From positions 1 to 49,826 of the IMG/VR virus record IMGVR_UViG_3300025102_000052: a stretch of DNA of 49,826 bases; one strand, written 5' to 3'. A model generated the notes under the pieces. The model saw only the letters and a program-made list of their open reading frames with translations. It ran no database searches and was not told the DNA's origin. The position numbers were made by a program, and so were the translations under genes. Source of the DNA: a virus. Of the stretch, positions 12,337 through 26,264 are shown one piece after another; within the stretch, counting starts at the first letter, position 1, and the number at the start of each line of letters is the position of its first letter.

Positions 12337-12461
12337 ATAAATGGGAAGAGGGGTCACATCTAGCAACCCCTCAATTACACAGACAGAAACGACAAAAATG
12401 CCTGATACCCGATCGGGTAGGCGGTGCCGTCGTTCTTCTTCCCGCCTGTGACAAGCTTAGC
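12337..12461. other. Structured non-coding stretch upstream of the tRNA
   Basis: Holds a perfect 7-bp stem GAGGGGT/ACCCCTC with 11-nt loop (12348-12372) and a 14-bp perfect palindrome TACCCGATCGGGTA (12406-12419). These may be a processing or terminator structure and an operator; no gene is seen. Confidence 0.45.
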
Positions 12462-12689
12462 TTAGTTGCCAGCTAAATGTGATTCAAGCGTTTGAATTGC
12501 ATCACGCAAAGTAGCGCCAGCAAATCCAGATGCGCCTGAATAAAACTCAGTTGGCTCAGCATAAATATCCGTCTCAGGATTGAACGGAATACTTGGCCGT
12601 GCTTTGAGGCAATAACCCTCAGCACGTTGAAGCTTGACCAACATCTCTTCGACTGCAGGTCTAGAGATCAAAACCATTTGCGTGTCCAT
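12462..12689 (-). CDS. Hypothetical protein
   Basis: A 75-aa protein, ATG 12689 after a run of T residues. Sequence MDTQMVLISRPAVEEMLVKL..., with a central Pro-rich region (KARPSIPFNPETDIYAEP) and a C-terminal helix (RDAIQTLESHLAGN). No family is recognised. A hairpin cassette lies upstream. Confidence 0.6.
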   Translation of the reverse strand: MDTQMVLISRPAVEEMLVKLQRAEGYCLKARPSIPFNPETDIYAEPTEFYSGASGFAGATLRDAIQTLESHLAGN

Positions 12690-12721
12690 AAAAAATAGTT
12701 GAAAGGACAGTATTAACTAGA

Positions 12722-12737
12722 GGCGCTAATTAGCGCC
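12722..12737 (-). terminator. Intergenic hairpin (cassette family)
   Basis: GGCGCT-AATT-AGCGCC, 6-bp stem. It lies between the divergent starts at 12689 (minus) and 12810 (plus). Confidence 0.55.
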
Positions 12738-12748
12738 CTCAAAGTTTA

Positions 12749-12754
12749 TACAAT
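12749..12754 (+). promoter_or_regulatory. Late-type -10 box TACAAT
   Basis: TACAAT upstream of the plus-strand gene at 12810, in the same form as boxes in the virion block but with a longer distance (55 nt) to the start codon. Confidence 0.4.
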
Positions 12755-12809
12755 CGAATAGTAGATGTTGATACTTATGCGAATTAAATAAACATAGGTA
12801 TGTGTATGA

Positions 12810-13640: not shown

Positions 13641-13885
13641 AGCTTGCCATCAACAATACCGTTGTGTGGTTTAGATGTCCAGCCATCGTATTCACCTTTT
13701 ATTACTGGAATATGAATGTCGTCCGTAACTAGACGGACGCCTTCTTCAGTCATGCCAGTAACCATATGTGTGCCATCAGAAAGGACTGATGTGTACAGTC
13801 CGTATTTTGATTTAACGATTGTATAGGTCCAATCAGTTTTTGTCGAAACTGGAGATCGAGAAACAGTAGATTGTGAAGATGGCAT
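13637..13885 (-). CDS. Hypothetical protein
   Basis: An 82-aa, probably all-beta protein (WTYTIVKSKYGLYTSVLSDG; HMVTGMTEEGVRLVTDDI), ATG 13885. It converges with the plus-strand gene, sharing 4 nt at the stops. No family is recognised. Confidence 0.6.
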   Translation of the reverse strand: MPSSQSTVSRSPVSTKTDWTYTIVKSKYGLYTSVLSDGTHMVTGMTEEGVRLVTDDIHIPVIKGEYDGWTSKPHNGIVDGKL

Positions 13886-13937
13886 AGATCGCTAGATATA
13901 TAAGGATGTCCATAGTTTGGAAAAAAGAAAAATCCCA

Positions 13938-13954
13938 GCCGTGGAATACACGGC
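13938..13954 (-). terminator. Rho-independent terminator after ssb
   Basis: Minus-strand stem GCCGTG/CACGGC with a 5-nt loop just past the ssb stop (13966), followed by GATTTTTCTTTTTT. Both stem and T-run are present. Confidence 0.8.
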
Positions 13955-13965
13955 CAGGAGTTTAA

Positions 13966-14448
13966 TCAGTAGAGAGCAGTCTCTTCCACCTGCTCTGTTT
14001 CGTCACTGTAGTCAGGTGTCTCATCGATGGCAGGTGTGCCAACTTGAGTAACAACTGAACCAGCAACAGCACGCACGTTGTTTTCAGCCTTAGGAATAGG
14101 TCCAAGGCCACCTTCCAAAACAGTCACTCCAATGAGGCTGATTTCGGGACGTTTGCGCATACGCACTTGGCCAGAATTGTCGGTGTAAACCTCACTGACA
14201 TTCTTGATGTGACCAGTAATAGTCACTTCACGGCCTTTGCCAAAAAAGCCTTTTTGATGAAGGCTCATAAGGCCGTTTTCGTTGTTGAATTTGTACACCA
14301 AGTCAGCACCGTCTTTGGTAGCAGTGCTGATGACAGATACAGCAAGGAACTGGCTGCCATCACGCTGTGGAACAACTTCAGCGTTGAAGATACGTCCAGT
14401 GACGGTGAGTGCGTTGAACTGAGCGTAGCGTGTTTGAGTGTTGGTCAA
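13966..14448 (-). CDS. ssb: Single-stranded DNA-binding protein
   Basis: A 160-aa OB-fold protein. It has the strands FNALTVTGRIFNAEVVPQRDG, FLAVSVISTAT and GREVTITGHIKNVSEVYTDN typical of SSB-like folds. The C-terminal third is disordered and acidic, ending DETEQVEETALY, which corresponds to the partner-binding tail of SSBs. It probably coats single-stranded DNA in phage replication. No ATG fits: the start appears to be TTG at 14448, just after a hairpin cassette. A clear terminator follows the gene. Confidence 0.72.
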   Translation of the reverse strand: MTNTQTRYAQFNALTVTGRIFNAEVVPQRDGSQFLAVSVISTATKDGADLVYKFNNENGLMSLHQKGFFGKGREVTITGHIKNVSEVYTDNSGQVRMRKRPEISLIGVTVLEGGLGPIPKAENNVRAVAGSVVTQVGTPAIDETPDYSDETEQVEETALY

Positions 14449-14482
14449 AGTGAATCTTTGATAAAGAACATGAAAAAAGAAA

Positions 14483-14498
14483 GCCGCTGTTAAGCGGC
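14483..14498 (-). terminator. Intergenic hairpin (cassette family) with T-run
   Basis: GCCGCT-GTTA-AGCGGC followed on the minus strand by TTTCTTTTTTC; a terminator-like structure between the CxxC protein and ssb. A GAACAT box lies 11 nt away on the start-codon side. Confidence 0.7.
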
Positions 14499-14505
14499 AA
14501 GGTGT

Positions 14506-14892
14506 TTAGTCGTGACCACCACAGGAAGCACACATAGGGTCATCAGGACCACATTCAATAGTCTGAAGAATGTTAATCATTGCTTGAAACTTACCAGCAT
14601 CTTTGAGCCAAGCTGCAGATGAGTCTTTATCTTCTAACTTGCAATCTTCAGCTACACGTTCGTGGAAGTGGATCATACGATCAATAATGTAAACCATCAT
14701 CAGCTTGTGAACAATCAAAGGATTGTTTGAGCTAGATGCTGCACGCTGTACCCAATGTTCAGCTTCATCAAATACATCATCAAAATGATCTTCAGTAACA
14801 ACTTTATCTGCAGCATCTGTTGGCGCATTTTTGAGGTGATCTTCAAGCGCTTCAGATGAAATGCTGTCAGGGATGTTGAATGATTGAGTCAT
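14506..14892 (-). CDS. Hypothetical protein with C-terminal CxxC
   Basis: A 128-aa helical, acidic protein. A long helical centre (NPLIVHKLMMVYIIDRMIHF) is followed by a cysteine-bearing tail with ECGPDDPMCASCGGHD, which may bind metal. No family is recognised. ATG 14892. Hairpin cassettes flank it on both sides. Confidence 0.65.
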   Translation of the reverse strand: MTQSFNIPDSISSEALEDHLKNAPTDAADKVVTEDHFDDVFDEAEHWVQRAASSSNNPLIVHKLMMVYIIDRMIHFHERVAEDCKLEDKDSSAAWLKDAGKFQAMINILQTIECGPDDPMCASCGGHD

Positions 14893-14922
14893 ATAGTACT
14901 CGAATTTACAAAAAGAATGAAA

Positions 14923-14938
14923 CCCGCTGTTTAGCGGG
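14923..14938 (-). terminator. Intergenic hairpin (cassette family)
   Basis: CCCGCT-GTTT-AGCGGG, 6-bp stem, followed on the minus strand by TTTCATTCTTTTT. Between the 69-aa gene and the CxxC protein. Confidence 0.65.
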
Positions 14939-14951
14939 ATTGGTGGTTAAC

Positions 14952-15161
14952 TCAAGCGATATTGCAGCACATATGTGCGTGGCCTGCATCGGAGATGAAG
15001 TCACCGACACGGTCTGCGAACAGAGCCGTGGAACCATCGGAGAAGATGGTGTATTCGGTTTCATCTACGAGATAGCAGAACGCATCTTCGTTCTGAGGAA
15101 CCACCTGTGATACACCTGGAATGTTGCTTGCAACAATCTGGAAGTCATAGGTGATTGCCAT
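14952..15161 (-). CDS. Hypothetical protein
   Basis: A 69-aa protein, ATG 15161, about 16 nt after the GTGTTC box of the cassette. Acidic, probably beta-rich (YLVDETEYTIFSDGSTALFA), with a Cys/His ending (GHAHMCCNIA). No family is recognised. Confidence 0.6.
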   Translation of the reverse strand: MAITYDFQIVASNIPGVSQVVPQNEDAFCYLVDETEYTIFSDGSTALFADRVGDFISDAGHAHMCCNIA

Positions 15162-15177
15162 ACAGCATTCAGAAAAA

Positions 15178-15221
15178 GAACACTAAAAAAGAAAGGCGCA
15201 GTTAAGCGCCATTGTGTGTTC
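15178..15221 (-). terminator. Complete hairpin cassette with GAACAC/GTGTTC boxes
   Basis: On the plus strand: GAACAC, 11 nt, stem GGCGC/GCGCC (15195-15210, sixth pair mismatched), 5 nt, GTGTTC. On the minus side TTTCTTTTTT follows the stem. Confidence 0.7.
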
Positions 15222-15353
15222 TCAACCGATCACGGTTGTTCTGGCAGCTTTACGGAGGTAAAGCATATCCCTCATCATCTCTTTGGTTTGACGGAGATAC
15301 TCTTCCTGAGTGCGCTTTGCTGCACGGACTTGAAGGTCTGTCATAGTGATCAT
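15222..15353 (-). CDS. Hypothetical 43-aa protein
   Basis: ATG 15353 (or 15344) to TGA 15222. Basic, helical: TDLQVRAAKRTQEEYLRQTK. It lies between two hairpin cassettes, which supports it being a gene unit. No family is recognised. Confidence 0.55.
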   Translation of the reverse strand: MITMTDLQVRAAKRTQEEYLRQTKEMMRDMLYLRKAARTTVIG

Positions 15354-15375
15354 GTAATGGACACGAAAAACTAAA

Positions 15376-15391
15376 GCCGCTGATTAGCGGC
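15376..15391 (-). terminator. Intergenic hairpin (cassette family)
   Basis: GCCGCT-GATT-AGCGGC with GGACAC 11 nt to its left; the stop codon of the upstream small gene touches its base. TTTAGTTTTTC follows on the minus strand. Confidence 0.65.
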
Positions 15392-15516
15392 TATTGCTCA
15401 TCAGAGCAAATGTCTGCGGCCTCTGTACTAGACAGAGGTGGTAGTAGGCATAGGCCTATAGATCTTGCATCTGCATTGAAGTAGAGAGCAAGGAAGAAAT
15501 AAAGAACTAGCTTCAT
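15391..15516 (-). CDS. Small putative secreted or membrane peptide
   Basis: A 41-aa frame, ATG 15516, joined to the HAD gene stop by TGATG. The N-terminus looks like a signal or membrane segment (MKLVLYFFLALYFNADA), followed by two cysteines. No family is recognised. Confidence 0.5.
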   Translation of the reverse strand: MKLVLYFFLALYFNADARSIGLCLLPPLSSTEAADICSDEQ

Positions 15517-16034
15517 CAAACCTTGACTACTACTTCTGGATGTGCATTCCAGTACTCACAGTTCTTGAGTACATGGATGCGTTTGATTCGTTGTAGGCGA
15601 GCGCCTTCTATGTTGTAGGGACTGTCATCAATGAGAGTACCCACCATCCGATAGTTTTTGCGGAGATACTTCAGCATGTGCTGCTTCGTATTACCGCTGT
15701 TATCTACGCCTGTAGATACAAGGATGAGATCAAATGGAATGTCCCACTTGCGTAGCCAGTTGAATGATTCAGTGAGCCTGTCTGATGGTCTTGCCGTACA
15801 GATGGCGATCGAATCACCCCATTGATGCATTATCCGTAGTAGATCCACGATGCGGTCATCAGGTGCAAATTCTCTGGATGCATCAAAGAATGCATCTTTG
15901 GACATACCACGGTTGTCAAAGCCATCAGGCTTTTGAGTGATAGTGTCGTCCAGATCAAATGCATGCACAATCCGCGACTTTTGCGGCTGTACACGCTGAA
16001 TACCGACAAAGTGGGATTGAGCTATACCTTTCAT
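15516..16034 (-). CDS. HAD-superfamily phosphatase, polynucleotide 3'-phosphatase-like
   Basis: A 172-aa protein. The HAD motifs are visible in order: FDLDDTIT with nucleophile Asp27 and Asp29, AICTARPSD (motif II Thr), and TLIDDSPYNIEGARL (motif IV acidic pair). The arrangement resembles the phosphatase half of T4 polynucleotide kinase and related phage enzymes, so nucleic-acid 3'-end repair is possible. A nucleotide phosphatase is an alternative. No kinase domain is attached. Start ATG 16034, after a hairpin cassette. Confidence 0.8.
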   Translation of the reverse strand: MKGIAQSHFVGIQRVQPQKSRIVHAFDLDDTITQKPDGFDNRGMSKDAFFDASREFAPDDRIVDLLRIMHQWGDSIAICTARPSDRLTESFNWLRKWDIPFDLILVSTGVDNSGNTKQHMLKYLRKNYRMVGTLIDDSPYNIEGARLQRIKRIHVLKNCEYWNAHPEVVVKV

Positions 16035-16063
16035 GTAATCTAATAAGAGTACAAGAAAGTAAA

Positions 16064-16079
16064 GGCGCTGTTAAGCGCC
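16064..16079 (-). terminator. Intergenic hairpin (cassette family)
   Basis: GGCGCT-GTTA-AGCGCC; a degenerate GAGTAC box lies 11 nt to the left. Upstream of the HAD gene. Confidence 0.6.
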
Positions 16080-16085
16080 TATTGG

Positions 16086-16253
16086 TCATACGTCAGATAG
16101 ATGTGCAAACATGAGTGCTTGAATTAGACGCAGCTCATTAATACGTAATGGTGCTTGATGCACATTAGTAGTAAATTGCGCTGTTTCGCGACAGATGACA
16201 TCGTGAATAGCTTGAACCTGTGCTTTGTCTAAAGATAGCTTTAGATCTGCCAT
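16086..16253 (-). CDS. Hypothetical 55-aa protein
   Basis: ATG 16253 to TGA 16086. Sequence MADLKLSLDKAQVQAIHDVI..., helical. Bounded by hairpin cassettes on both sides. No family is recognised. Confidence 0.55.
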   Translation of the reverse strand: MADLKLSLDKAQVQAIHDVICRETAQFTTNVHQAPLRINELRLIQALMFAHLSDV

Positions 16254-16288
16254 TGCTTGTTTCTATATATGGACCGTTTATTACCAAA

Positions 16289-16304
16289 GCCGCAGTTATG
16301 CGGC
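16289..16304 (-). terminator. Intergenic hairpin (cassette family)
   Basis: GCCGCA-GTTA-TGCGGC, 6-bp stem; compared with neighbouring copies the top pair is A-T where they have T-A, a compensated change. Confidence 0.6.
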
Positions 16305-16313
16305 AAAGGTTCT

Positions 16314-16583
16314 TTAATTCGGAGGTACGACGATCATCGTATCTTTGATCTGATCTTGAATTTGCTTTATAGCTGATGACCAGAAGTAAAAGTAATTACT
16401 TGGAAGGCGGCCTTTACGATAGGACGCTTTTCTAATGTCATCAGCAAGATTGTCAAGCATATTAAGCACATAAGTAGGATCTAGCCCTTGTTTAATACGC
16501 TGGCTTTTGTCAAGCCGTAGCTCTTCGCAGTCCATGTTGTCAAGGACTGAGTTGATGACGGCATTAACAGCTTGTTGGTTCAT
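16314..16583 (-). CDS. Hypothetical protein
   Basis: An 89-aa helical protein, ATG 16583 just after CTATATAG. Contains DNMDCEELRLDKSQRIKQG and a Tyr/Phe-rich stretch (SNYFYFWSSAIKQIQDQ). No family is recognised. Confidence 0.62.
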   Translation of the reverse strand: MNQQAVNAVINSVLDNMDCEELRLDKSQRIKQGLDPTYVLNMLDNLADDIRKASYRKGRLPSNYFYFWSSAIKQIQDQIKDTMIVVPPN

Positions 16584-16612
16584 CTATATAGATTAAAGGC
16601 ACCAAATTTAAA

Positions 16613-16628
16613 GCCGCAGCTATGCGGC
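16613..16628 (-). terminator. Intergenic hairpin whose loop holds a stop codon
   Basis: GCCGCA-GCTA-TGCGGC. The TAG stop of the upstream gene (16622-16620) spans the loop and first stem-side bases, so the hairpin overlaps the end of that gene. Confidence 0.6.
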
Positions 16629-16868
16629 CTTAGGTTGTTCTACAGCTGGCTCAAGGTCTTTCTTGAGATCAGCTACGTGAGCCTCTAAGCGTTCGATGGA
16701 AGTCTTATGACTATCGATTAGCTTATTGAGCTCATCAATCTCTGATTGAGTTTGCTCTTGTTTATAGGCGGCCAACTGTGAGTCTGAAATGACGTATACA
16801 GATGGACGCTGATGTGTGATCCAAGGATCAAAGGGATTTTGCATGTTATATAGGCTTATAAAGCTCAT
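16620..16868 (-). CDS. Hypothetical coiled-coil protein
   Basis: An 82-aa protein, starting at ATG 16868 or in-frame ATG 16844. The second half is a clear coiled coil (EIDELNKLIDSHKTSIERLE, then AHVADLKKDLEP). No family is recognised. The stop lies within a hairpin loop. Confidence 0.6.
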   Translation of the reverse strand: MSFISLYNMQNPFDPWITHQRPSVYVISDSQLAAYKQEQTQSEIDELNKLIDSHKTSIERLEAHVADLKKDLEPAVEQPKAA

Positions 16869-16960
16869 TGCTCATTTATATATACCGACCCTATTAATTT
16901 ACTGTCTAAGTATCTAATAGGGCTATCGGTATACACGGTAGTTGTTGTAGTAATAGCCGA

Positions 16961-17110
16961 TTATTCACACGCCTTCTTTAAGGCATTTAATTGAAAATCG
17001 TTCTCAATAAGCTCTAACTTACGCGCTTTCTTGAGGACCTTACGGGCCTCTTTGCGAGTAGTTGCTAATTGAGCCTTGTTTAACAACTTGAGGTATTTAC
17101 GTTCGGACAT
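16961..17110 (-). CDS. Hypothetical 49-aa basic protein
   Basis: ATG 17110 to TAA 16961. Lys/Arg-rich helix (TTRKEARKVLKKARKLELIE). May bind nucleic acid; no family is recognised. Confidence 0.5.
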   Translation of the reverse strand: MSERKYLKLLNKAQLATTRKEARKVLKKARKLELIENDFQLNALKKACE

Positions 17111-17114
17111 AGCG

Positions 17115-17204
17115 TCACTTCAGTAATTGGACAAGTAGTACCCCAACTGAGGATAGGCCCCATAGGAGTAGGAAGAGGACATACGTCTTTACTAGCTCAT
17201 TCAT
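17115..17204 (-). CDS. 29-aa single-pass membrane peptide
   Basis: ATG 17204 overlaps the stop of the upstream gene by 4 nt (ATGA). Nearly all of MNELVKTYVLFLLLWGLSSV and the following residues is one hydrophobic helix, capped by a C-terminal Lys. It may be a small membrane or lysis-related peptide; this is inference. Confidence 0.45.
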   Translation of the reverse strand: MNELVKTYVLFLLLWGLSSVGVLLVQLLK

Positions 17205-17392
17205 TTCACTTTTAAGCAACGTACATAAATGTCTAATGCGTCCACAGTCTCAATCACTTTCTCTTCTACAGCCATAGACAGTGAGATGGCAATGTCATGG
17301 CACATGTCTTCGACAGTAAGATTATAAGGTGATTGATATGGTGTAACTGTAATGGGTACAGCTAGTAACAACGGTAGTAATGTGTTCAACAT
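17201..17392 (-). CDS. Small putative exported protein
   Basis: A 63-aa protein with a hydrophobic signal-like N-terminus (MLNTLLPLLLAVPITVTPY), then a helical region with two cysteines (DMCHDIAISLSMAVEEKV...). Coupled to the downstream 29-aa membrane peptide. The pair could serve in the envelope during lysis, but no spanin or holin signature is certain. Confidence 0.55.
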   Translation of the reverse strand: MLNTLLPLLLAVPITVTPYQSPYNLTVEDMCHDIAISLSMAVEEKVIETVDALDIYVRCLKVK

Positions 17393-17443
17393 AGTGTATT
17401 CCTCTCAATTCAATTTTACCTGTTCTTAACCTGCCATTATGGA

Positions 17444-17449
17444 TACAAT
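17444..17449 (+). promoter_or_regulatory. Late-type -10 box TACAAT
   Basis: TACAAT ending 24 nt before the ATG at 17474; it fits the series of boxes before virion-block genes. Confidence 0.55.
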
Positions 17450-17473
17450 GTTGGTAAAGGTAAGGTATAGGTT

Positions 17474-17893
17474 ATGGAAAGACGTAAGGCCGGTGACTTC
17501 CTAACCGGACTACTTGATAAAGCTCGTGGAGTAGACGATGCTTACAGTAGCCGGGTTAGAGATATGTACACCCCTTTGCTTGATAAGGATGGTAAGGCTA
17601 AAGGCCTTAAAGGCACAGCCTTTGTCCTTGGATCAACCATCGGTGGTGGACAGCCGTCCTTACGGAAGATGGAAGGAGTAGAGCGCACTGAGGGTGCTGG
17701 CAAAGTTCAACAACGGATTGAGAATGTTGTTGTACCAGCCATGGAATATGGCGTACCAGCAGCCAGTGCTGTATCTAAGTACGTCCTACCAGCGGCAGGT
17801 GTGACCCTTGCTGGTAAAGGACTAATGGATCTAGCCGCAAGCTTCGGTGGTCCAGCGGACCAACAGCAGCCTGGACAGATCTTATTGACATAA
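17474..17893 (+). CDS. Unrecognised glycine/alanine-rich protein, possibly virion-associated
   Basis: A 139-aa plus-strand protein alone among minus-strand genes. The N-terminus is charged (MERRKAGDFLTGLLDKARGV). The centre has a Gly-rich stretch (STIGGGQP), and the C-terminal part a hydrophobic Ala/Gly segment (YVLPAAGVTLAGKGLMDLAA). It resembles the glycine-rich proteins of the virion block and has its own TACAAT box. No family is recognised. Confidence 0.65.
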   Translation: MERRKAGDFLTGLLDKARGVDDAYSSRVRDMYTPLLDKDGKAKGLKGTAFVLGSTIGGGQPSLRKMEGVERTEGAGKVQQRIENVVVPAMEYGVPAASAVSKYVLPAAGVTLAGKGLMDLAASFGGPADQQQPGQILLT

Positions 17894-17909
17894 GAAAACG
17901 AAAAATAAA

Positions 17910-17925
17910 GCGCCCGATAGGGCGC
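17910..17925. terminator. Hairpin between convergent genes
   Basis: GCGCCC-GATA-GGGCGC lies between the stops at 17893 (plus) and 17933 (minus). On the minus strand it is followed by TTTATTTTTCGTTTTC, so it should end minus-strand transcription. Confidence 0.7.
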
Positions 17926-17932
17926 ATAGGCG

Positions 17933-18172
17933 TCAAGCAGCGACGGGCTCGGAAGCTTTTACAGCCTTGGCAGCTTTAGCTTCTTCAGCTTTGGTGTCGA
18001 TGGCTTTGACAAGGGACTTGGCATAAGAGAAGGAACCACCGACAACCATGCTGTCGATAGAGCCGTCTGCTTGTTCAATGCCAACATCGAAGATGTCATA
18101 CTGGTCATCTTTAGTTTCAACGCGCTCAAAGAGACGAACGTTGATGTCTTGACCAGGGACTTTGAAACGCAT
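17933..18172 (-). CDS. Hypothetical protein
   Basis: A 79-aa protein from ATG 18172 (MRFKVPGQDINVRLFERVET). The longer frame to 18196 starts with TTG in the leader and is rejected. Beta-like first half, then an Ala/Lys-rich tail. No family is recognised. Confidence 0.62.
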   Translation of the reverse strand: MRFKVPGQDINVRLFERVETKDDQYDIFDVGIEQADGSIDSMVVGGSFSYAKSLVKAIDTKAEEAKAAKAVKASEPVAA

Positions 18173-18196
18173 AAGAGATAACGAATAAGTGAACAA

Positions 18197-18209
18197 GCCC
18201 TAATCGGGC
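18197..18209 (-). other. Short extra hairpin in the leader of the 79-aa gene
   Basis: GCCC-TAATC-GGGC, a second small hairpin 3' of the main cassette hairpin. Confidence 0.4.
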
Positions 18210-18222
18210 AAAGAGCGAGAAA

Positions 18223-18238
18223 GGCGCTGATAAGCGCC
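18223..18238 (-). terminator. Intergenic hairpin (cassette family)
   Basis: GGCGCT-GATA-AGCGCC, 6-bp stem, after the stop of the 107-aa gene; followed by TTTCTCGCTCTTT on the minus strand. Confidence 0.6.
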
Positions 18239-18252
18239 CTATCGCAGGATGT

Positions 18253-18576
18253 TCAATAGAGGGCTACCACAGCGTCCTCTACAGGACGTGGAGCCTGAGT
18301 GTCTTCATCCAGTGAAAGTTCCTGCTGGATAGAAGGAGCTCGCTTTACAGGTTTCGGAGTAGGGCGGTCCCAACGGCGCTTAGCCGTGTGACGCTCCAAG
18401 TCGTAACCGTAAGACGCATAGTTCACCATGCAGTCTTGAAGTTGTGTGTATGAGCGGAATACTCTGCAACGGTTAGTAGTACCACCGTATGCAATGTATA
18501 CGCCATCACACTGAGCGAATGTCCAAGTTGACAGACCTTTGGCAGTCATCTTGGTAAGAGTAGCGAGTTTACGCAT
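18253..18576 (-). CDS. Hypothetical protein
   Basis: A 107-aa protein from ATG 18576; the upstream GTG at 18603 belongs to the conserved GTGTTC leader. Basic N-terminus (MRKLATLTKMTAKGLSTWTF) and a disordered acidic tail (QQELSLDEDTQAPRPVED). A 14-bp palindrome GATACTTAAGTATC lies just before the start. No family is recognised. Confidence 0.6.
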   Translation of the reverse strand: MRKLATLTKMTAKGLSTWTFAQCDGVYIAYGGTTNRCRVFRSYTQLQDCMVNYASYGYDLERHTAKRRWDRPTPKPVKRAPSIQQELSLDEDTQAPRPVEDAVVALY

Positions 18577-18579
18577 ATA

Positions 18580-18593
18580 GATACTTAAGTATC
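18580..18593 (-). promoter_or_regulatory. 14-bp perfect palindrome next to a start codon
   Basis: GATACTTAAGTATC ends 3 nt before the ATG at 18576, covering the place of the ribosome-binding site. It could be an operator or an RNA hairpin that limits translation. Confidence 0.4.
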
Positions 18594-18597
18594 GAAA

Positions 18598-18641
18598 GAA
18601 CACGACAAAATAAAGGCGTCAATAGACGCCCTTGTGTGTTC
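18598..18641 (-). terminator. Complete hairpin cassette with GAACAC/GTGTTC boxes
   Basis: GAACAC (18598), 11 nt, GGCGTC-AATA-GACGCC (18615-18630), 5 nt, GTGTTC. Confidence 0.7.
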
Positions 18642-18867
18642 ATGCAGGTGAACCCGGCATAGCCGGTATTGGGGCATCACCCCAAGCCGCACTGCGGATG
18701 CAGTAGCTGTAGAGATGTCCCCATTCACCTTCGTAGTAATCGATAAGGCTTTCGCAAGCCGTGTAACTACGTGGAGCATATGGCATATCTTGCCAGCAGT
18801 TGCTCCAAGGATTTGAAGTGTCAGGTTCACGCTCGCGGAACCAAACACGGCACAGACCTGGAATCAT
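18640..18867 (-). CDS. Hypothetical protein
   Basis: A 75-aa protein from ATG 18867, rich in Trp, Tyr and Cys (FREREPDTSNPWSNCWQDMP; DYYEGEWGHLYSYCIRSAAW). The GTG at 18888 is part of the leader. No family is recognised. Confidence 0.58.
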   Translation of the reverse strand: MIPGLCRVWFREREPDTSNPWSNCWQDMPYAPRSYTACESLIDYYEGEWGHLYSYCIRSAAWGDAPIPAMPGSPA

Positions 18868-18882
18868 TGGAAGGTATATAAA

Positions 18883-18926
18883 GAACACGGAGAAAGAAAC
18901 CCGTCGATAGACGGGCTCTAGTGTTC
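18883..18926 (-). terminator. Complete hairpin cassette with GAACAC/GTGTTC boxes
   Basis: GAACAC (18883), 11 nt, CCCGTC-GATA-GACGGG (18900-18915), 5 nt, GTGTTC. The TGA stop of the upstream gene lies at its right end. Confidence 0.7.
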
Positions 18927-19098
18927 AGAACGGGATGTCCGCAGGATCTGTAGGCTTGACATAGTCAAGACGTACGTCTTCCCAGTCCTCAAAGGACTTG
19001 GCGTATGCCTGTGCTTCTTGATAGGTATCGAAGTACTCAGTAGTAGCTTCAGGGATACCGTCGTCACAGTAGATTTCGTAGTAAGAAACTGTGTACAT
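18925..19098 (-). CDS. Hypothetical 57-aa acidic protein
   Basis: ATG 19098 to TGA 18925: MYTVSYYEIYCDDGIPEATT..., ending PTDPADIPF. A longer frame over the same bases in another register reads low-quality Ser/Thr-rich sequence and lacks the standard cassette-to-ATG spacing, so this frame is preferred. No family is recognised. Confidence 0.6.
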   Translation of the reverse strand: MYTVSYYEIYCDDGIPEATTEYFDTYQEAQAYAKSFEDWEDVRLDYVKPTDPADIPF

Positions 19099-19112
19099 CT
19101 GAATGATGTAAA

Positions 19113-19156
19113 GAACACAGTGAACGAAACCCGCCGATAGGCGGGCTCTAGTGTTC
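19113..19156 (-). terminator. Complete hairpin cassette with GAACAC/GTGTTC boxes
   Basis: GAACAC (19113), 11 nt, CCCGCC-GATA-GGCGGG (19130-19145), 5 nt, GTGTTC. Confidence 0.7.
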
Positions 19157-19325
19157 AGTTTGAGTTGAGAAACTCATGCAGTGCTTCTTCATACTCAGCA
19201 ACTGAATCGAAGCCACGTGATTGTGCAGCTTCCAATGTGATTGGAGATCTGCGTGCAATACGGTTAACTTCGTATTCAGTCATGCCAGTTTGAGCAGCAA
19301 TCTGCGTGACATAAGGATTGAACAT
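19155..19325 (-). CDS. Hypothetical 56-aa protein
   Basis: ATG 19325, 15 nt after the cassette's GTGTTC. Helical with a helix-turn-helix-like look (TQIAAQTGMTEYEVNRIARR), but too short to call. Ends in TGA within the next cassette. Confidence 0.55.
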   Translation of the reverse strand: MFNPYVTQIAAQTGMTEYEVNRIARRSPITLEAAQSRGFDSVAEYEEALHEFLNSN

Positions 19326-19340
19326 AGTGAAATGAATTAA

Positions 19341-19384
19341 GAACACAATGAACTAAACCCTTCGATAGAAGGGCTCATGTGTTC
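19341..19384 (-). terminator. Complete hairpin cassette with GAACAC/GTGTTC boxes
   Basis: GAACAC (19341), 11 nt, CCCTTC-GATA-GAAGGG (19358-19373), 5 nt, GTGTTC. Confidence 0.7.
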
Positions 19385-19556
19385 ATTCGAACGCTTGAAC
19401 AGGGCCGAGAAAAGCACAATCAAATTCTTCAAAGACTTGATTGAGCTCTTCGGACTCACGCAAGCGAGAGATTTCTACCCAGCAACCGCCAGATTCTTCA
19501 ACATGAAGAGCGCGGTTGTAGGTGATGAACCAAGGTGAATCATCGAAACCAAACAT
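19383..19556 (-). CDS. Hypothetical 57-aa acidic protein
   Basis: ATG 19556 (MFGFDDSPWFITYNRALHVE). Acidic second half (RLRESEELNQVFEEFDCAF). First gene of the minus-strand block reading leftwards from the central non-coding region. No family is recognised. Confidence 0.58.
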   Translation of the reverse strand: MFGFDDSPWFITYNRALHVEESGGCWVEISRLRESEELNQVFEEFDCAFLGPVQAFE

Positions 19557-19574
19557 CGAATGTAATGAGATAAA

Positions 19575-19617
19575 GAACACCACCGACTAAACACGTCGAT
19601 AGACGTGAGGTGTGTTC
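19575..19617 (-). terminator. Complete hairpin cassette with GAACAC/GTGTTC boxes
   Basis: GAACAC (19575), 11 nt, CACGTC-GATA-GACGTG (19592-19607), 4 nt, GTGTTC. There is no gene upstream of it on the minus strand, so here it heads the block and need not end an upstream gene. Confidence 0.7.
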
Positions 19618-20245
19618 AGTAATTGAATTGATGAGAGATGACTACACGCATAAGTTACGCATCAGTGATGCAGTCAACGGATGATACATGTGTCATCAAT
19701 GAATACACATACGTTGCAACATCTGATCTAAACGAAAGGTAGACTTGAGTTAGACGATTGCAACTTGTGTGGAAACTCAACTGTTACAACATAAGTAACT
19801 TACATGTGAAACAACTTAAGTAAACTTATGAATTGAAACTTGAGTTTGAATCTGTTGTTAGAACAAAAGTAAATCACAAGTAAAAACTTGAGTGTATTTT
19901 TTTTGTTCCACCGGGTAGGCGGGTACAACAGGGATTAGACGTGTCAAAAATTTTGTAGCATTTTTAGGACCCTATAGAGCGGTTTTTTGTGCCTGATTAA
20001 ATGTGCCGACTCGTATCCCAGAATCTTTGGGTATATGTGGGATATTTTACGGTACATACCATATATGGCTGTGTTTGTGCTAATTAACACAAGACAGTCG
20101 GGCAGTGCAATACTGCTTGTTTGGAATCAAACTACAAACCACGCCAAATACGGCAGTTTTCTATATAACTGTTTTTAATTCTCTTGCTACGCTTCTCTCT
20201 ATCTTTTTCAAAATAACTATATAGGTATTAAGCGTAGGAAGTGTA
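19618..20245. other. Large non-coding region between the two transcription blocks
   Basis: No credible gene in about 630 bases. The left half is crowded with AACTTRAGT-like repeats (19743-19897). The right half has small palindromes: CCATATATGG (20059-20068), TTGTG-8nt-CACAA (20085-20102) and GCAGT-5nt-ACTGC (20112-20126). A near-palindrome around ACATGT lies at 19681-19696. The layout suits a replication origin or a control region for both blocks. Confidence 0.55.
19743..19897. repeat. Cluster of degenerate AACTTRAGT repeats
   Basis: ACTTGAGTT (19743), AACTTGTGT (19762), AACATAAGTAA (19788), AACTTAAGTAA (19813), AAACTTATG (19822), AAACTTGAGTT (19837), AACAAAAGTAA (19862), ACAAGTAAA (19876) and AACTTGAGT (19885) recur at short intervals. 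Iteron-like. Confidence 0.5.
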
Positions 20246-20247
20246 GT
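20192..20247 (+). repeat. Promoter/leader element, copy 2 of 2
   Basis: Pyrimidine run, AAAATAACTATATAGG (20210-20225) and AGCGTAGGAAGTGTAGT, matching 11151-11210. It ends in the GTG start of the first virion-block gene. TATATA (20218-20223) is a likely -10 box 22 nt before the start. Confidence 0.65.
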
Positions 20248-21178
20248 GAAATTAGATAAAATAAAAAATATCCGTGATAAATCGATGGGCAATCAGTATT
20301 TTGGTGATGATTTAATCCCAGGCGTAAATGTAAAAAATATCAATGCTGGTATTATCAACCCATTGAATAGATTTGGCAGTCTGCTTGGAACGGCATACAA
20401 TCAATACGGTGAAGGACTACGCGGCGCTCTAGGTCAAAATCAAGATGATTATGCGCAACAATTCTTAGACGGAAAGCTAACTGGTCAAAAAGGTTTGAAA
20501 GACATTGTACAAATAACGCTAAAAGATGGCAAAGAGCAATCTTTTGATGTGAGCACTAAAGAAGGTGCTGATGCCATGAATAAGGCAATTGACGCTCAGC
20601 AGCCTATGAAACCAGCTTCGGAAAATCCACAGCCTGTTACAGGTGTAGCGAAGCTTGATCCGAACGCAACTAAAGAATTTAAAACTGCATTCAATATTGG
20701 CGAGAAAAAGATGGATGACATGCTGAACTATTTCGGCAGTCAAAACAACGGCGAGAACCTAAAAACATGGGCTGAGGCAAACCCTGCTTTGGCATACAAA
20801 GAATTCAAAAAAGCGGGCATGACTGCCAAAGAGCCTTTTGGTTATAACGACGTTGAATTTGGCAAATTACCAGAGAATCCTGCAGTAGCTGCTGAGCGAG
20901 CAGGTATTAAAAAAGTATATGACAATCAAGTAGAACAAACTGATCAAGAAAAACTTGCTCAAATGTTTAAAAATACAGCCGTAGGGACGATGTTAGGTCT
21001 AGATCTAAGTAAGTACAAGGATTTAGAGGCTAATCCTTTCCAAATTGATATTCCTACTTTGTTCGGTAAATCTGAAGACTTCAATATTCCAGGATTAACA
21101 AGTCAGCTAAGTCAATATTCTGCTTCTGACTATCGAGATCTAATAGGTAAGAACTCTAACTTGTTCAACTATAAGTAA
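20246..21178 (+). CDS. Unrecognised virion-block protein
   Basis: A 310-aa protein starting at GTG 20246, first gene of the plus block. Hydrophilic and mixed, with an N-terminal Asn/Gly-rich part (GMNQYFGDD-like start, NINAGIINPLNRFGSLLGTA), a middle with KDGKEQSFDV and many Asn-Pro turns, and a helical C-terminal part. No domain is recognised. Its place before the terminase suggests an internal or tail-associated virion protein. Confidence 0.65.
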   Translation: MKLDKIKNIRDKSMGNQYFGDDLIPGVNVKNINAGIINPLNRFGSLLGTAYNQYGEGLRGALGQNQDDYAQQFLDGKLTGQKGLKDIVQITLKDGKEQSFDVSTKEGADAMNKAIDAQQPMKPASENPQPVTGVAKLDPNATKEFKTAFNIGEKKMDDMLNYFGSQNNGENLKTWAEANPALAYKEFKKAGMTAKEPFGYNDVEFGKLPENPAVAAERAGIKKVYDNQVEQTDQEKLAQMFKNTAVGTMLGLDLSKYKDLEANPFQIDIPTLFGKSEDFNIPGLTSQLSQYSASDYRDLIGKNSNLFNYK

Positions 21179-21192
21179 TAATCAAAATTCTC

Positions 21193-21198
21193 TACAAT
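21193..21198 (+). promoter_or_regulatory. Late-type -10 box TACAAT
   Basis: TACAAT ending 26 nt before the GTG at 21225. Confidence 0.55.
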
Positions 21199-21224
21199 AG
21201 TTGTAGGTTTTTGCAGTAGAAATA

Positions 21225-23264
21225 GTGTACTTAGAAACTAATCAAGGAAGGCACAATACTAATAAAGTTGCATTAAGTAGGCTTTCTGCAAGTGCTGACC
21301 CACAGCAGACCCCACATGATATTAATTCTGGGCTAATTAAGTCTGCTGAGTTTCAAGCTGCCGGTAGAACTCTGGGAATGTCGCCAGAAGAGACCCTGGC
21401 AATGGTGTCACGTCAGCAAAGACGGCAGCAACGGAAAGGTGACGGCTTTGATTCCAAGCAATATTTGCGTCAAATCGCCCAAGCTAGTAAAACAACCACT
21501 AATGAAGTGGGCCGTGCAGAGCTCGACGGACTGAGATTTCAAGAAGATGACGAATTGACTGCTGCTTTCGGGCAAATGCAGGACGATGAACAAACATATC
21601 GCGCCGATGACCGTGGATTTACGGTTGATGAGGAGACCGGACTGCTTCGAAGAGAGACTTTTGACGAAACTCGGGGCGAAGAAGTCACAATGGCCCCCAA
21701 ATCTGTCATTACTGACGCACTAAGCGACCTCGAACGCTCTGCTGAGCGTCAAAGGCGTGGTGTTGGTGGCTCTATTGCACGTGTATTCGGTGGATCCGCC
21801 GTTGATAGCGAGACATCCACGGCAATGGACGCCCTTAAGGAGTATTTGCAGAACGAAAAGCAAAGTGATGCACGTCTTGGTCGAGTACTGGTTCGTCAGG
21901 ACAACAGACGATTCGATCCTGAGGTACGTGAAGCCAATCAGTTCCGTGCAGACGCCGAAGCACAGAACATTGCTCGTACTGCGTTCCTGACTGGTGGTGC
22001 AGGTGCCTTTGCTGACGACGCTATTGGCCGTATTGGTGAGATGAGGCGGATGGGCGCTGCTGGCTCCTTAGGGCCTATGGAGCAATCCCAAGTTATTCGC
22101 CAAGGAGCCCCTAGCCAATACCCTCAAGCCGAAGAGATTGTTGATGGCACTGGACGTGTCGTTGGATATGCCGATCCAGCTACGAAAGTCCCCATTGCTC
22201 TGGACCCTCAGCTTGGTATCAGCCTTGCAACTCAAGGATCCAACACTCCTGACACTGCTCAGCTAATTAATGCTCCACAAAACCCGCAAACCGCCCGAGA
22301 GTGGGCAGCCAGCAACCTTCCTGCCATGACACAGGACACAGGAAGCACTCCTCCTCGCTACCCCCAAGCAAACATCAGCAAAGAAACGACTGATTTCTCC
22401 AAGAGAGTGCGGAATGTGCTCCAAGGGATGGAGCTGACAAACACCCCTTCAGTCGCAAAAAATGTTCGGAATCTTGAAGAGGTCGAAGGCGTAGCCAACT
22501 TCATTCAGCGGGAACTAGAGAAGCGTGGCGACACCCTGATGATCCGTAACCCTGATGAGACCAGTAGAACCAAAAACATACCTGCTGGTACTCAGGTTGT
22601 TAGTGGACTGATGCAGAAGCTAGGCATGACAAGCGGTGATGAGGAACGTTTAGCTAACTCGATGTTCCAATTGGACGCCGCAAAACGCTCATCGGTTAAC
22701 CAGAACCCAACTGGCACCTACCTGTCTCGCACAGGAACACCCACTGAAGACGTGATTTTCAATGCACCTGCAGAAGGGTTTGGAAGTATGCCTATTGCTC
22801 AGCAAGGTGGCGGCACCAGCATTCGTGTTGGCACTGACTCCAGAGGCAAAGCAGTCAAGCAAGACATCCGCTCTGCCATGGCTGGACTGGATGCACAGCG
22901 TGGAGGCGCTGGTGCACAAAAGCCCTTTATCGGCATGCCTGCTGACAGACCTACGCCGTCCACAGCTCGTGGACCGATGGACGCAACTCTGCTCCAAGAG
23001 CCTGTATACAACCGCACTGGACAAACCAACCCTGCAGCCATTCGCTCAACACTTGAAGGTCTGAGTGAAAGACGTGCCAAGAAAGGTGAATCCAAAGCAG
23101 ACGCTGCTATCCGTCGTAAGCGGAATGAAGGAAACATCATTGGTGCCCAGGCAGTACAACGTCGGGCTGATGAAGACCTTACCCGCCGTGCCGATGCAAT
23201 GAGCACAATCATCGGATCACTGCCACCTATTGCTCGTCGTTCCTCCTTCCCCCGTAGCCGCTGA
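21225..23264 (+). CDS. Large unrecognised virion-block protein
   Basis: A 679-aa protein, GTG start. Rich in Gln, Arg, Asp and Thr with almost no hydrophobic segments. The first third holds basic and acidic stretches (SRQQRRQQRKGDGFD; QDDEQTYRADDRGF), the second third is Pro/Gln-rich, and the C-terminus is basic (RRADEDLTRRADAMST; ends RRSSFPRSR). The length and charge pattern would suit a virion-packaged internal protein. No domain is recognised. A TACAAT box precedes it. Confidence 0.7.
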   Translation: MYLETNQGRHNTNKVALSRLSASADPQQTPHDINSGLIKSAEFQAAGRTLGMSPEETLAMVSRQQRRQQRKGDGFDSKQYLRQIAQASKTTTNEVGRAELDGLRFQEDDELTAAFGQMQDDEQTYRADDRGFTVDEETGLLRRETFDETRGEEVTMAPKSVITDALSDLERSAERQRRGVGGSIARVFGGSAVDSETSTAMDALKEYLQNEKQSDARLGRVLVRQDNRRFDPEVREANQFRADAEAQNIARTAFLTGGAGAFADDAIGRIGEMRRMGAAGSLGPMEQSQVIRQGAPSQYPQAEEIVDGTGRVVGYADPATKVPIALDPQLGISLATQGSNTPDTAQLINAPQNPQTAREWAASNLPAMTQDTGSTPPRYPQANISKETTDFSKRVRNVLQGMELTNTPSVAKNVRNLEEVEGVANFIQRELEKRGDTLMIRNPDETSRTKNIPAGTQVVSGLMQKLGMTSGDEERLANSMFQLDAAKRSSVNQNPTGTYLSRTGTPTEDVIFNAPAEGFGSMPIAQQGGGTSIRVGTDSRGKAVKQDIRSAMAGLDAQRGGAGAQKPFIGMPADRPTPSTARGPMDATLLQEPVYNRTGQTNPAAIRSTLEGLSERRAKKGESKADAAIRRKRNEGNIIGAQAVQRRADEDLTRRADAMSTIIGSLPPIARRSSFPRSR

Positions 23265-23266
23265 TC

Positions 23267-23590
23267 ATGAAACATTCATATCCAACACGTAATACCCAAC
23301 AGGGTCGTGATACTCAACAAGAAGCACAACGTACTCCACTAAGTACTGGCAAAATTAACAGTGCTGCCAAGATTAGGCAGGCACACGATTTAGACAGGCC
23401 TGAACAACAAGTTCAAGCTCGTGCTCGTGTACAGCGATACATGAATGATCCTGATAATAAGCAATGGACTGACGAGTTCATGGTTGCCTTTGAGAAATCA
23501 AACCAAGGTCAGGACTGGTATCAAGCTAGATATAATATGGGCAAGCCAGTTAAACCTATCAATCAAGAGGACAATAACAATGCCGGGTAA
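23267..23590 (+). CDS. Hypothetical Gln-rich protein
   Basis: A 107-aa protein two bases after the previous stop. Gln/Arg-rich N-terminus, helical DRPEQQVQARARVQRYM, then a WTDEFMVAFEKS segment. No family is recognised. Overlaps the next gene by 11 nt. Confidence 0.65.
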   Translation: MKHSYPTRNTQQGRDTQQEAQRTPLSTGKINSAAKIRQAHDLDRPEQQVQARARVQRYMNDPDNKQWTDEFMVAFEKSNQGQDWYQARYNMGKPVKPINQEDNNNAG

Positions 23591-24083
23591 GTTATTAAGC
23601 ACTGGTGGTAGATTTGCGGGTAACGCTTTAAAGAGTTTATTTAAAGTTCCTGGTACAGGCCTGCCAATGGGTCGTGCCGAAATATTTGGAAGATTAGCTC
23701 CTGATGTATTCTTTGGTGGAGTTGAAGGTGTTATGACGCCAGGTGATATTGGAGATAAATTAATAGCAGGAACAACTACCACAATTGGTAGTGCTGGTGG
23801 TGGTTTAGCGTTTGGCCGTCTAGGCGGGCAAAATCAACTTGCAGGATTTCTCTTAGATATGGGTGGATCTTTTGGTGGTGACATGGGAGGACGAATGATT
23901 GGAGATCAAATACAGCGTGGCAAAGATAAACTTGCAGGTGGCAAAGGTCTTACCGCTTATGAACGTTTAAATGAAAAAGATCGGGAAAAGCTTGAACAGT
24001 TAATTCGCGAAGACCAAACCGGACGCATTCTTGCTGAACTCGGGCTGCTCCCTGCTTCGACGCAGAGTGCATTAATTAGCTGA
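23580..24083 (+). CDS. Glycine-rich virion-block protein
   Basis: A 167-aa protein from ATG 23580 (MPGKLLSTGGRFAGNALKSL); a longer frame to 23445 would overlap the previous gene by 146 nt and is rejected. The centre is a glycine-zipper-like hydrophobic stretch (TTTIGSAGGGLAFGRLGG; DMGGSFGGDMGGRMIG), followed by a charged helix. Possibly membrane-interacting during DNA ejection; no family is recognised. Confidence 0.68.
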   Translation: MPGKLLSTGGRFAGNALKSLFKVPGTGLPMGRAEIFGRLAPDVFFGGVEGVMTPGDIGDKLIAGTTTTIGSAGGGLAFGRLGGQNQLAGFLLDMGGSFGGDMGGRMIGDQIQRGKDKLAGGKGLTAYERLNEKDREKLEQLIREDQTGRILAELGLLPASTQSALIS

Positions 24084-24093
24084 GGCAGTACTG

Positions 24094-25332
24094 ATGGCTG
24101 AAGGAAGACGGGAACAAATCAAAAACATCCTGAATGATTTAGGTGCTGGCTTCTCTGCTGACTATCAGCTTGGTCGTGAGGACAGACGTAATGCGTTTCT
24201 CCGTGATCGCAAGCTGAAAGGACAAACAGAAGAATCCACTAAGTGGGACGCAATGATGGGTACACACCCTGCCGCGTTCCGGGTACAGGAAGCTCTCGGA
24301 AAGCTGAGCCCTGAAAAGAAGCAAGCCCTCCAAGAGTTGGATATGGGCTTAAGGGGCAGCACAGCACACAAAGTGGGGCAGTTTGGTGGAAGCATTGCCA
24401 ACGACCTGACACAGGACACCACTAGAGGCATCTACTGGCTTCTGAATGCACTACAAGCAACAGGTGAAGTAATTAACGAACAGACCCTTTCTAGGATCGT
24501 TCCTCAGCTATACGAGAAATCTCGTGTACAGAGCACAGATACTCCGTTTACTAAGAAGGGAGGTGAGGGCAAGCAGCCGCGTTATCTGAATAGAGGAGAC
24601 GAACAAGCAGTTGGAGAGATGCTGCGTAGGGGCTATGCAAAGCAGATCGACGATCGCCTTACCGCATCTCGTGGATACAGCTTTGAAGAAGGTGGTGATC
24701 TGAAAAAGCGGAACTACAGCCCAGGCATGGTTCAGTCTTTAGCAATCCCTACTGGTATTGCAATCAATACGGGCTTAGGTCTTTTGAGCCCCTTTGGTGG
24801 AGCTGAAGGGTACAAGGCTGCACTTCCATCTGAAGATGATCCAACAAAGACATCAAACGTCATTGGTGAAGTTGGACTGAAGTACTTGATGGGTAGAACC
24901 GGTCAGCTTCTTCCATACGAACAGTTCAAACAGGTAAGACCTGATGTGAGCCGTGAGGAGTACAACCGTTATCAAGCATTTAAGTATGACAAGCGTGAGG
25001 ACTACAACCCGTTAGATGGTGACCTAACTATCGGTGCGGGAGCCTTGAAGTTCACAGACGAGGGAATTCACGGACCTGAAGTTCAGTTCCTAGGTAGAGG
25101 CTTACCTGTTACCACAGGAATTGTTCCCTACCTTGGAGCATTAGCTGGAGGAGCTGCTGGTGCTAAATATGGTTCTAGATCTAAGCGTGCCGCTATTGGT
25201 GGATTAACAGGTGGACTAGCAGGATTAGCAGTTGGTAATGTCACAGGCAATATAATTGAATCAGAGAGACGCCGTCGTAACTCTGTTGCTAATCAATTAG
25301 AAGGCGGAAACGCAGAACAGTACTTAGGTTAA
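24094..25332 (+). CDS. Virion-block protein with C-terminal glycine-zipper segment
   Basis: A 412-aa protein. The N-terminal 200 residues are charged and helical (REQIKNILNDLGAGFSADY; KLSPEKKQALQELDMG). After a middle domain, residues about 340-395 form an Ala/Gly membrane-like segment (VPYLGALAGGAAGAKYGS, AIGGLTGGLAGLAVGNVTG), then a basic tail (ESERRRRN). It may be an internal or ejection protein that inserts into the host membrane. No family is recognised. Confidence 0.68.
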   Translation: MAEGRREQIKNILNDLGAGFSADYQLGREDRRNAFLRDRKLKGQTEESTKWDAMMGTHPAAFRVQEALGKLSPEKKQALQELDMGLRGSTAHKVGQFGGSIANDLTQDTTRGIYWLLNALQATGEVINEQTLSRIVPQLYEKSRVQSTDTPFTKKGGEGKQPRYLNRGDEQAVGEMLRRGYAKQIDDRLTASRGYSFEEGGDLKKRNYSPGMVQSLAIPTGIAINTGLGLLSPFGGAEGYKAALPSEDDPTKTSNVIGEVGLKYLMGRTGQLLPYEQFKQVRPDVSREEYNRYQAFKYDKREDYNPLDGDLTIGAGALKFTDEGIHGPEVQFLGRGLPVTTGIVPYLGALAGGAAGAKYGSRSKRAAIGGLTGGLAGLAVGNVTGNIIESERRRRNSVANQLEGGNAEQYLG

Positions 25333-25336
25333 AACC

Positions 25337-25759
25337 ATGAGCTTTTTAAAACCGGTTGATGTTGTTAGTTATATGGATTCGTTTGATACGGATAAAGCAG
25401 TAAATGCACGTAATAGAGCAGATGCTTTTACAAAAGCAAGTGCTGCTGAAAGGTCTGGAGATATGGCAAGCACAGCGGGTCAACTGTTTGGAGAAGCTAA
25501 GGGTTCTGATTTATTAGTTGACGCAGGAGCATATGCACAACAACAGGCACAAAACGCTCAAACCTTTGGCAAATTTGCAAACGTAGCTGCCGGTCTTGGC
25601 TCAATTGGCGTTTCGCCTGGAGGCTTTGGCAATTTATTTGGTAGCGGTAAAAATTTGTCAGATTTCAACCCAAGTGGACTGTTTACTAGTGCCCCCGAAA
25701 TGAATTTTGAGCCGACGCTGTTTCAGGGATGGTCAGCGCCAAAATATGTCCCTGGTTAA
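25337..25759 (+). CDS. Hypothetical Ala/Gly-rich virion-block protein
   Basis: A 140-aa protein. N-terminal helical part with AFTKASAAERSGDMASTAG, Ala/Gln-rich helix (DAGAYAQQQAQNAQTFGKFA), then a Gly/Phe-rich segment (GSIGVSPGGFGNLFGSG). No family is recognised. Confidence 0.65.
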   Translation: MSFLKPVDVVSYMDSFDTDKAVNARNRADAFTKASAAERSGDMASTAGQLFGEAKGSDLLVDAGAYAQQQAQNAQTFGKFANVAAGLGSIGVSPGGFGNLFGSGKNLSDFNPSGLFTSAPEMNFEPTLFQGWSAPKYVPG

Positions 25760-25823
25760 GTCTAGCTGAAGCAATAGTTTAAAGAATAAACTTGATAAAC
25801 TATACAAAGGCTAATACGCTAAT

Positions 25824-26264
25824 ATGGCAAGCTTTTCTCTTTCTAAATCCAGCTTAAACCTAACACCTCCGTCTATTACTGGAGGACCTCGCAGTAATTA
25901 TGCTACTGCTGGTGATGCGGTTAATACTGCAAGGATTTGGCAAGCCAATCGTCAGGGTTCACCTGACATGGCAGGAATAGTTGCTCAGAACTCTGCTTCT
26001 GAGACAAGTGTATTTAATGCAATCAAAGATGCAGAAGCGACTGCCATGATGGGTGGATTAGCCGGCTGGTCAAAAGCTTTTATGGCTAACAAAGAAGCCG
26101 AAGCTGCCAAAGCCGCTGCTAGAAAGGATGCTAAAAAATCCATGAGTAGTTCACTTTTCGGTGCTCTTGGCACTGTTGGCGGAGCTCTTCTAACTGCTGG
26201 AAATCCCGTAGGGGCAATGATTGGCGGCCAAATAGGCAGTTCTGTTGGAGGACTTATTGGTTAA
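25824..26264 (+). CDS. Glycine-zipper virion-block protein
   Basis: A 146-aa protein. A polar N-terminus, an Ala/Lys helix (ANKEAEAAKAAARKDAKKSM) and a C-terminal hydrophobic Gly-rich segment (LFGALGTVGGALLTAGNPVG, AMIGGQIGSSVGGLIG) that ends the protein. It looks able to insert in a membrane. No family is recognised. Confidence 0.68.
   Translation: MASFSLSKSSLNLTPPSITGGPRSNYATAGDAVNTARIWQANRQGSPDMAGIVAQNSASETSVFNAIKDAEATAMMGGLAGWSKAFMANKEAEAAKAAARKDAKKSMSSSLFGALGTVGGALLTAGNPVGAMIGGQIGSSVGGLIG

Follow-up and report, generated by a model that had tools for sequence, protein, structure and literature searches.

The interval 19618–20245 raises a simple question: what does a virus keep in the longest gene-free stretch of its DNA, exactly where leftward and rightward transcription part? 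The window (i.e., the whole stretch of DNA analysed, a linear virus record of 49,826 bases) had been read once before, from its letters alone, and the earlier note had proposed a replication origin, an initiator site or a master switch between early and late gene blocks. According to our analysis, the region is probably the main control site of the virus, and perhaps the place where replication starts, because crowded and preserved repeats lie at the divergence and part of the region recurs twice elsewhere.

The gap, the virus and its relatives

The longest gap in the window measures 662 bp (19584–20245; the runner-up has 473 bp) and lies between small minus-strand genes on the left and plus-strand structural genes starting at 20246 on the right, so that both the gene-free stretch and the strand divergence described in the earlier note are real. 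The only open reading frame in the gap (19987–20178, 63 aa) is open in the window and in one close relative (G001), and we do not consider it a gene, because stops or frame breaks interrupt it in the five other copies out of seven. At the left edge of the region, a hairpin cassette (repeat family D3; 19568–19620, minus strand) lies between minus-strand small genes. Such cassettes, made of GAACAC, a GC-rich hairpin with a short loop and GTGTTC, separate many of these small genes and are kept in the relatives; in the window, they start at 15175, 18595, 18880, 19110 and 19572, with a looser family spanning 3303–19568, while the strict pattern occurs at six places, apparently by chance in one case (18030).

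The window is an uncultured marine cyanophage related to Synechococcus phage S-EIV1, whose genus-level group ranked in the top five of all cyanophage groups by abundance in one ocean survey, with 3.3% of the cyanophage content (PMC5332604). It encodes two proteins of the photosystem II D1 family, a quinone oxidoreductase (TQO, of the phage ptoX kind) and a transaldolase, along with a terminase large subunit, head proteins and a sigma-70 factor. The sole match of its 752-aa structural protein among 50,697 phages is S-EIV1 (49.7% identity over 81%), and a DNA-level search of known phages with positions 19000–26000 returned no match. Relatives were IMG/VR contigs found with the conserved second late gene (21225–23264, plus strand, 679 aa): G001 (34.6 kb, 99% identity in that protein), G002 (80.6 kb, 90%), G004 (82.3 kb, 57%), and further G005 (IMGVR_UViG_3300050343_000255, 106 kb), G003 (13.5 kb) and L046. 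The map of G002 is circular, of about 80.4 kb, since its two ends share 141 identical bases. G005 carries the control region twice, about 81.3 kb apart and with differing neighbouring genes, as if its assembly had passed through two strains and so covered an 81-kb map more than once; the integrase gene of this contig is apparently split between frames.

Altogether, six other copies of the region were found in related contigs, plus one that is cut off. The seven full copies (window, G001, G002, G004, two in G005, L047) are those counted below; L048/G006 holds only the left half and is excluded, its contig stopping inside the core, more likely through an assembly break in sequence shared between strains than at a physical end. 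G003 and L046 begin to the right of the region and are uninformative about it. All relatives are metagenomic assemblies, and copies from close strains are not independent: the window and G001 are near-identical in this region, L047 and both copies in G005 resemble each other closely, and the effective number of lineages is about three. L047 (NYWV01000067.1) is binned as a Porticoccaceae MAG, yet it is probably a misbinned phage contig, because it carries the cyanophage control region.

Repeat array and conserved core

On the left, the region contains a dense array (19742–19893) in which AACTTRAGT, with at most one mismatch, is matched nine times against 0.71 expected from shuffled sequence, and none of 300 shuffles reaches nine; the top 160-bp windows for this motif across 49.8 kb are all located here. 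The roughly nine repeats of the earlier note thus withstand the shuffling check that it had suggested, with the qualification that the nine matches represent six places, because three are reverse readings of a nearly palindromic motif; the palindromes that it had mentioned are present as well. The exact motif is rarer in relatives, with eight matches in G002, four in G004 and four in the second copy of G005. What is kept is the frame AC-N4-GT, found at 7, 7, 7, 8, 10, 10 and 11 sites in the seven full copies versus 1.4–2.1 in shuffled sequence (0 of 1000 shuffles in each of the seven). In the window, these dyad sites lie at 19743, 19763, 19789, 19814, 19838, 19863 and 19886, spaced by 20–26 bp, and many hold the same offsets from copy to copy while their four inner letters vary. 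Such a fixed frame with a drifting interior is the pattern that a dyad-binding protein would be expected to leave. Identity between the window and G004 is only 68% over the array, which includes an invariant run of 22 bases (19774–19795).

The array is followed by a near-invariant core (19895–19990), present once per genome unit, which reads T8, GTTCCACCGG..GGGTACA..AGGGATTAGACGTGTC.AAAATTTT and contains invariant runs of 20 bases (19895–19914) and 16 bases (19930–19945), as well as a TAGG-NN-CCTA palindrome (19965–19974), the arms of which are constant while its centre drifts between AC, AA and GT. A further block (20026–20074) consists of two invariant runs in the alignment of the copies, TTTGGGTATAT ... 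ATATGGCTGTGT. Over the seven copies, 349 of the 747 alignment columns are invariant. The core is 98% identical to G002 and 80% to G004, which makes it more conserved than the adjacent gene for the 679-aa protein (82% and 67%, respectively). Moreover, the constraint on the region is independent of the gene on its right, as this first late gene (20246–21178, plus strand) is swapped between relatives and differs between the window, G001, G002, G004 and both G005 copies.

Two side observations concern these late genes. Several of the swapped first genes share a C-terminal block (LDPNATE...NPALA.KE), and the leader directly before the 679-aa gene, CTACAATAGTTGTAGGTTT..GCAGTA at 21190–21224, is nearly constant in the relatives compared, even where protein identity falls to 43–46% (L005, L046).

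A dyad module present in three copies

The right part of the region (20116–20248, plus strand) is a dyad module, in which CTAC repeats on the left and GTAG repeats on the right form arms pointing outward around an AT-rich centre, with a TATA element beside each arm. The usual order of a half-site is TATATA, a spacer of 6–7 bases, the sequence (A)GCGTAG or one close to it, and another GTAG. Exceptions are 5 of 28 rows that matched an inner TATA first, i.e., both sides of window copy 2, the left side of G004 copy 2 and both sides of G002 copy 3; the right sides of window copy 2 and G002 copy 3 still reach an arm, but the other three rows show none. A profile built from the six copy-1 modules alone detects exactly two further modules per 80-kb genome (E 8e-17 to 9e-10), without exception in contigs long enough to include them. 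In all five contigs extending so far (six places), copy 2 (11088–11225 in the window, plus strand) lies about 8.9–11.2 kb to the left, and in the three long contigs copy 3 lies, inverted, to the right at about 38–43 kb round the circle. Elsewhere in those contigs, apart from the same places read in reverse, the profile returned a single match, at E 0.61, while S-EIV1 yielded no module; in the truncated G006, there is a match to the left of the core, at a distance of about 8.5 kb. Neither this three-copy module nor the near-invariant core figured in the earlier note.

Within a genome, the left halves of copies 1 and 2 are 46–62% identical, against 63–97% for copy-1 left halves across genomes, and the right halves of copies 1 and 2 are 62–68% identical, with mixed relationships, those of G002 being nearer to its own other copies. 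Recombination between modules was considered and rejected: left halves are nearer to their orthologues than to their paralogues, the right halves being mixed. No rearranged module order was seen in the three long contigs. All three G002 copies carry the arm variant GTAGTTAGCGTAG, as if the copies were tracking one protein.

The surroundings of the copies are themselves recurrent. A search with the copy-3 pattern gave four further contigs, i.e., seven in all, a set chosen by that pattern and hence silent on contigs without copy 3, and in all seven copy 3 is flanked by a tyrosine integrase gene and the gene of a 47-aa protein. The integrase is of a 255-aa type (A) in three contigs, above the Pfam cut-off, and of a 369-aa type (B) accompanied by an HTH_17 protein in four, below it; the type-A integrase gene overlaps copy 3, its stop codon being located within an arm. 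Genes start shortly outside the arms at the right of copy 1, at the left of copy 3 (the 47-aa gene, 7/7 contigs) and, in type B, at the right of copy 3 (the HTH_17 gene, 4/4), and no gene start was found near the left of copy 1, the right of copy 2 or the right of copy 3 in type A. The right arm of copy 2 points antisense into the gene at 11222–11872 (minus strand). The 3' end of that gene abuts the module, and its C-terminal pattern, of the GDNSI...N...SQ type, is kept in relatives whose N-termini differ. About 1 kb to the right of copy 2 stands a tRNA-Leu(UAA) in the window (12252–12337, minus strand) and, in G002 (40466–41020 in window orientation), a group of tRNA-Leu(UAA), tRNA-Met and tRNA-Arg; ARAGORN found no tRNA in G004 or G005.

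Every genome has a small gene to the left of copy 2 (10733–10972 in the window, minus strand), whose product might be a ribbon-helix-helix-like DNA-binding protein. Pfam scores for these proteins are all below cut-off or absent, the window protein having a weak ParG match (E 0.0095) and its G002 counterpart a weak RHH_5 match (E 9e-4). A first structural model (mean pLDDT 73) displays two helices after an unmodelled N-terminus, and a fold search with it returned nothing significant (Arc, 1bdv, was 19th of 21, at E 9.6); a second model (pLDDT 46) was unusable.

Candidate functions and known systems

We consider it about an even call that the region is a conserved divergent cis-regulatory hub. 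We observed the repeats, the neighbour-independent conservation, the three module copies and the half-site geometry; promoter activity, the identity of a binding protein and the labels early and late are inferred. The right part (20116–20248) would be an outward-facing promoter/operator module, with a TATA element on each side and, after it, tandem GTAG repeats to which a phage DNA-binding protein would bind, and it would launch the plus-strand late operon rightward. The sigma-70 family factor of the phage (36763–37710, plus strand) is a candidate reader of the TATA elements. The AC-N4-GT array and the core may bind one or more further phage proteins that would regulate how the small minus-strand genes are transcribed leftward and how early and late expression are balanced; together, they could be the site of a second protein governing leftward transcription, replication or both. 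Because gene starts lie shortly outside several arms, the simplest reading is an outward dual promoter whose regulator binds the repeats. The hub is further favoured by the conservation of seven full copies despite the swapped late gene, by AC-N4-GT sites that hold their positions far above shuffles while their inner letters drift, by the recovery of copies 2 and 3 with a copy-1 profile, by the sigma-70 factor and by the arm variant common to the G002 copies. Against it, no sigma-70-type promoter (−35/−10) was matched inside 19618–20245, and the number of matches in 19000–21300 is at chance (5 vs. 5.5 expected, all right of 20300), although the phage sigma factor could read another consensus. 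Likewise, two arms, on the left of copy 1 and on the right of copy 2, lack a nearby gene start, the type-A integrase gene extends into copy 3, the roughly 600 bp under constraint exceed what a promoter needs, and the putative regulator beside copy 2 is only a sub-threshold ribbon-helix-helix protein for which the structure search gave nothing significant.

An origin of replication, the first proposal of the earlier note, is possible but on the doubtful side. A phage initiator (possibly a VapE-like primase-helicase) would bind the AC-N4-GT iterons and/or the GTAG arms, melt AT-rich DNA and start theta replication, with modules 2 and 3 as accessory or further origins. Initiator-type sites are indeed repeated above chance and conserved, next to a single-copy core, and the module copies belong to the least stable DNA: the least stable stretches of the window overlap copy 2 (60 bp) and copy 1 (120 bp), and that of G002 (120 bp) overlaps copy 3. 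Module and array reach at least the 94th percentile of instability at 60 and 120 bp, but the core is not unusually unstable, nor is copy 1 extreme in G002. G002 also encodes a family-A DNA polymerase and a VapE-domain protein matching PDB 7pds (E 5e-17; “Similar to D. nodosus vapE”). A related helicase of staphylococcal islands acts at an origin where iterons flank an AT-rich stretch. However, the GC-skew check proposed in the earlier note speaks against an origin: total skew is positive on both sides of the region, third-position skew follows transcription (the coding strand), and the local cumulative minimum lies about 10–16 kb to the left in G002, G004 and S-EIV1 (by eye, in 2-kb steps). 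In addition, no initiator gene was recognised among the window proteins scanned, and the VapE gene of G002 is about 26 kb away. What stands of the earlier interpretation is thus an iteron-like array that binds protein and occupies a divergent control position, as judged from the shuffles and the seven conserved copies, rather than the origin. Its other suggestion, a master switch between blocks, is the better fit, given that the right part is an outward module whose several copies are located at block borders and near gene starts. That the three modules (at the divergence, at the start of the large minus-strand block and at the integrase border) are one system read by a single phage protein, which would both fire divergent transcription and start replication, with array and core as master site, seems unlikely; if true, this would be a multi-site switch coupling the lysogeny module, the early block and the late block in S-EIV1-related marine phages.

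Other readings are less probable still. The modules could be attachment-like sites of the tyrosine integrase, with copy 3 as attP, which would agree with their dyads and arm-like repeats, with the inversion of copy 3 relative to copies 1 and 2 and with its place beside the integrase in 7/7 contigs. We nonetheless find this improbable, as the same module adjoins two different integrases (type B being under the Pfam cut-off), copies 1 and 2 lack an integrase, left halves are less alike within than across genomes, right halves are mixed and none of the three long contigs shows a rearranged order. The sub-cut-off ParG and RHH_5 matches of the small protein whose gene lies left of copy 2, and the presence of three repeat loci per genome, might suggest that this protein binds a partition-type centromere, but a ParA-type ATPase (AAA_31) was detected in none of the seven records, the control being detected in 14/14 genomes, and such a centromere is very improbable. 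Hardly credible, finally, is a conserved non-coding RNA: a near-invariant core of about 100 bp would suit it, but none of 23 predicted pairs has a compensatory change and no Rfam match approaches the gathering score.

How does the region compare with known systems? S-EIV1 (KJ410740) belongs to the same lineage by its structural protein and has a divergent gap (44032–44548 of its record) between a minus-strand block and a plus-strand structural block, with repeats and a T9 tract, but it differs by having no module and no integrase that we could find; homology of the core to this gap was rejected, as 67 and 8 of 300 shuffles score as high. We found no published control element of the S-EIV1 lineage in the open-licence literature. 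With its conserved, alignable sequence and its repeated module, the control region offers fragment-sized targets for promoter, binding and origin assays, as well as DNA probes for finding more members.

Copy 2 of the window reads ACTATATAGGGAGA, which resembles the start of T7-type phage promoters, but a T7-type promoter was rejected, since no single-subunit RNA polymerase gene occurs in G002 or G004 (T7 control, E 1e-109). Divergent lambda-like operator/promoter regions also have arrays of dyad sites between divergent blocks, but here no recognisable repressor gene lies beside the region, and there is a dual TATA module with downstream GTAG repeats and without a host-type promoter match. Iteron replication origins, i.e., that of the PLE of Vibrio cholerae (PMC7145576, PMC8263062), that of SaPI and the ori/crr of P4, resemble the region by their dyad-site repeats in a non-coding gap, a poly-A/T tract and AT-rich DNA, and SaPI also by its VapE-type helicase. 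In contrast to iteron origins, the present region has no adjacent initiator and no skew switch, and it is located at the divergence of early and late genes, with one part recurring three times round the genome.
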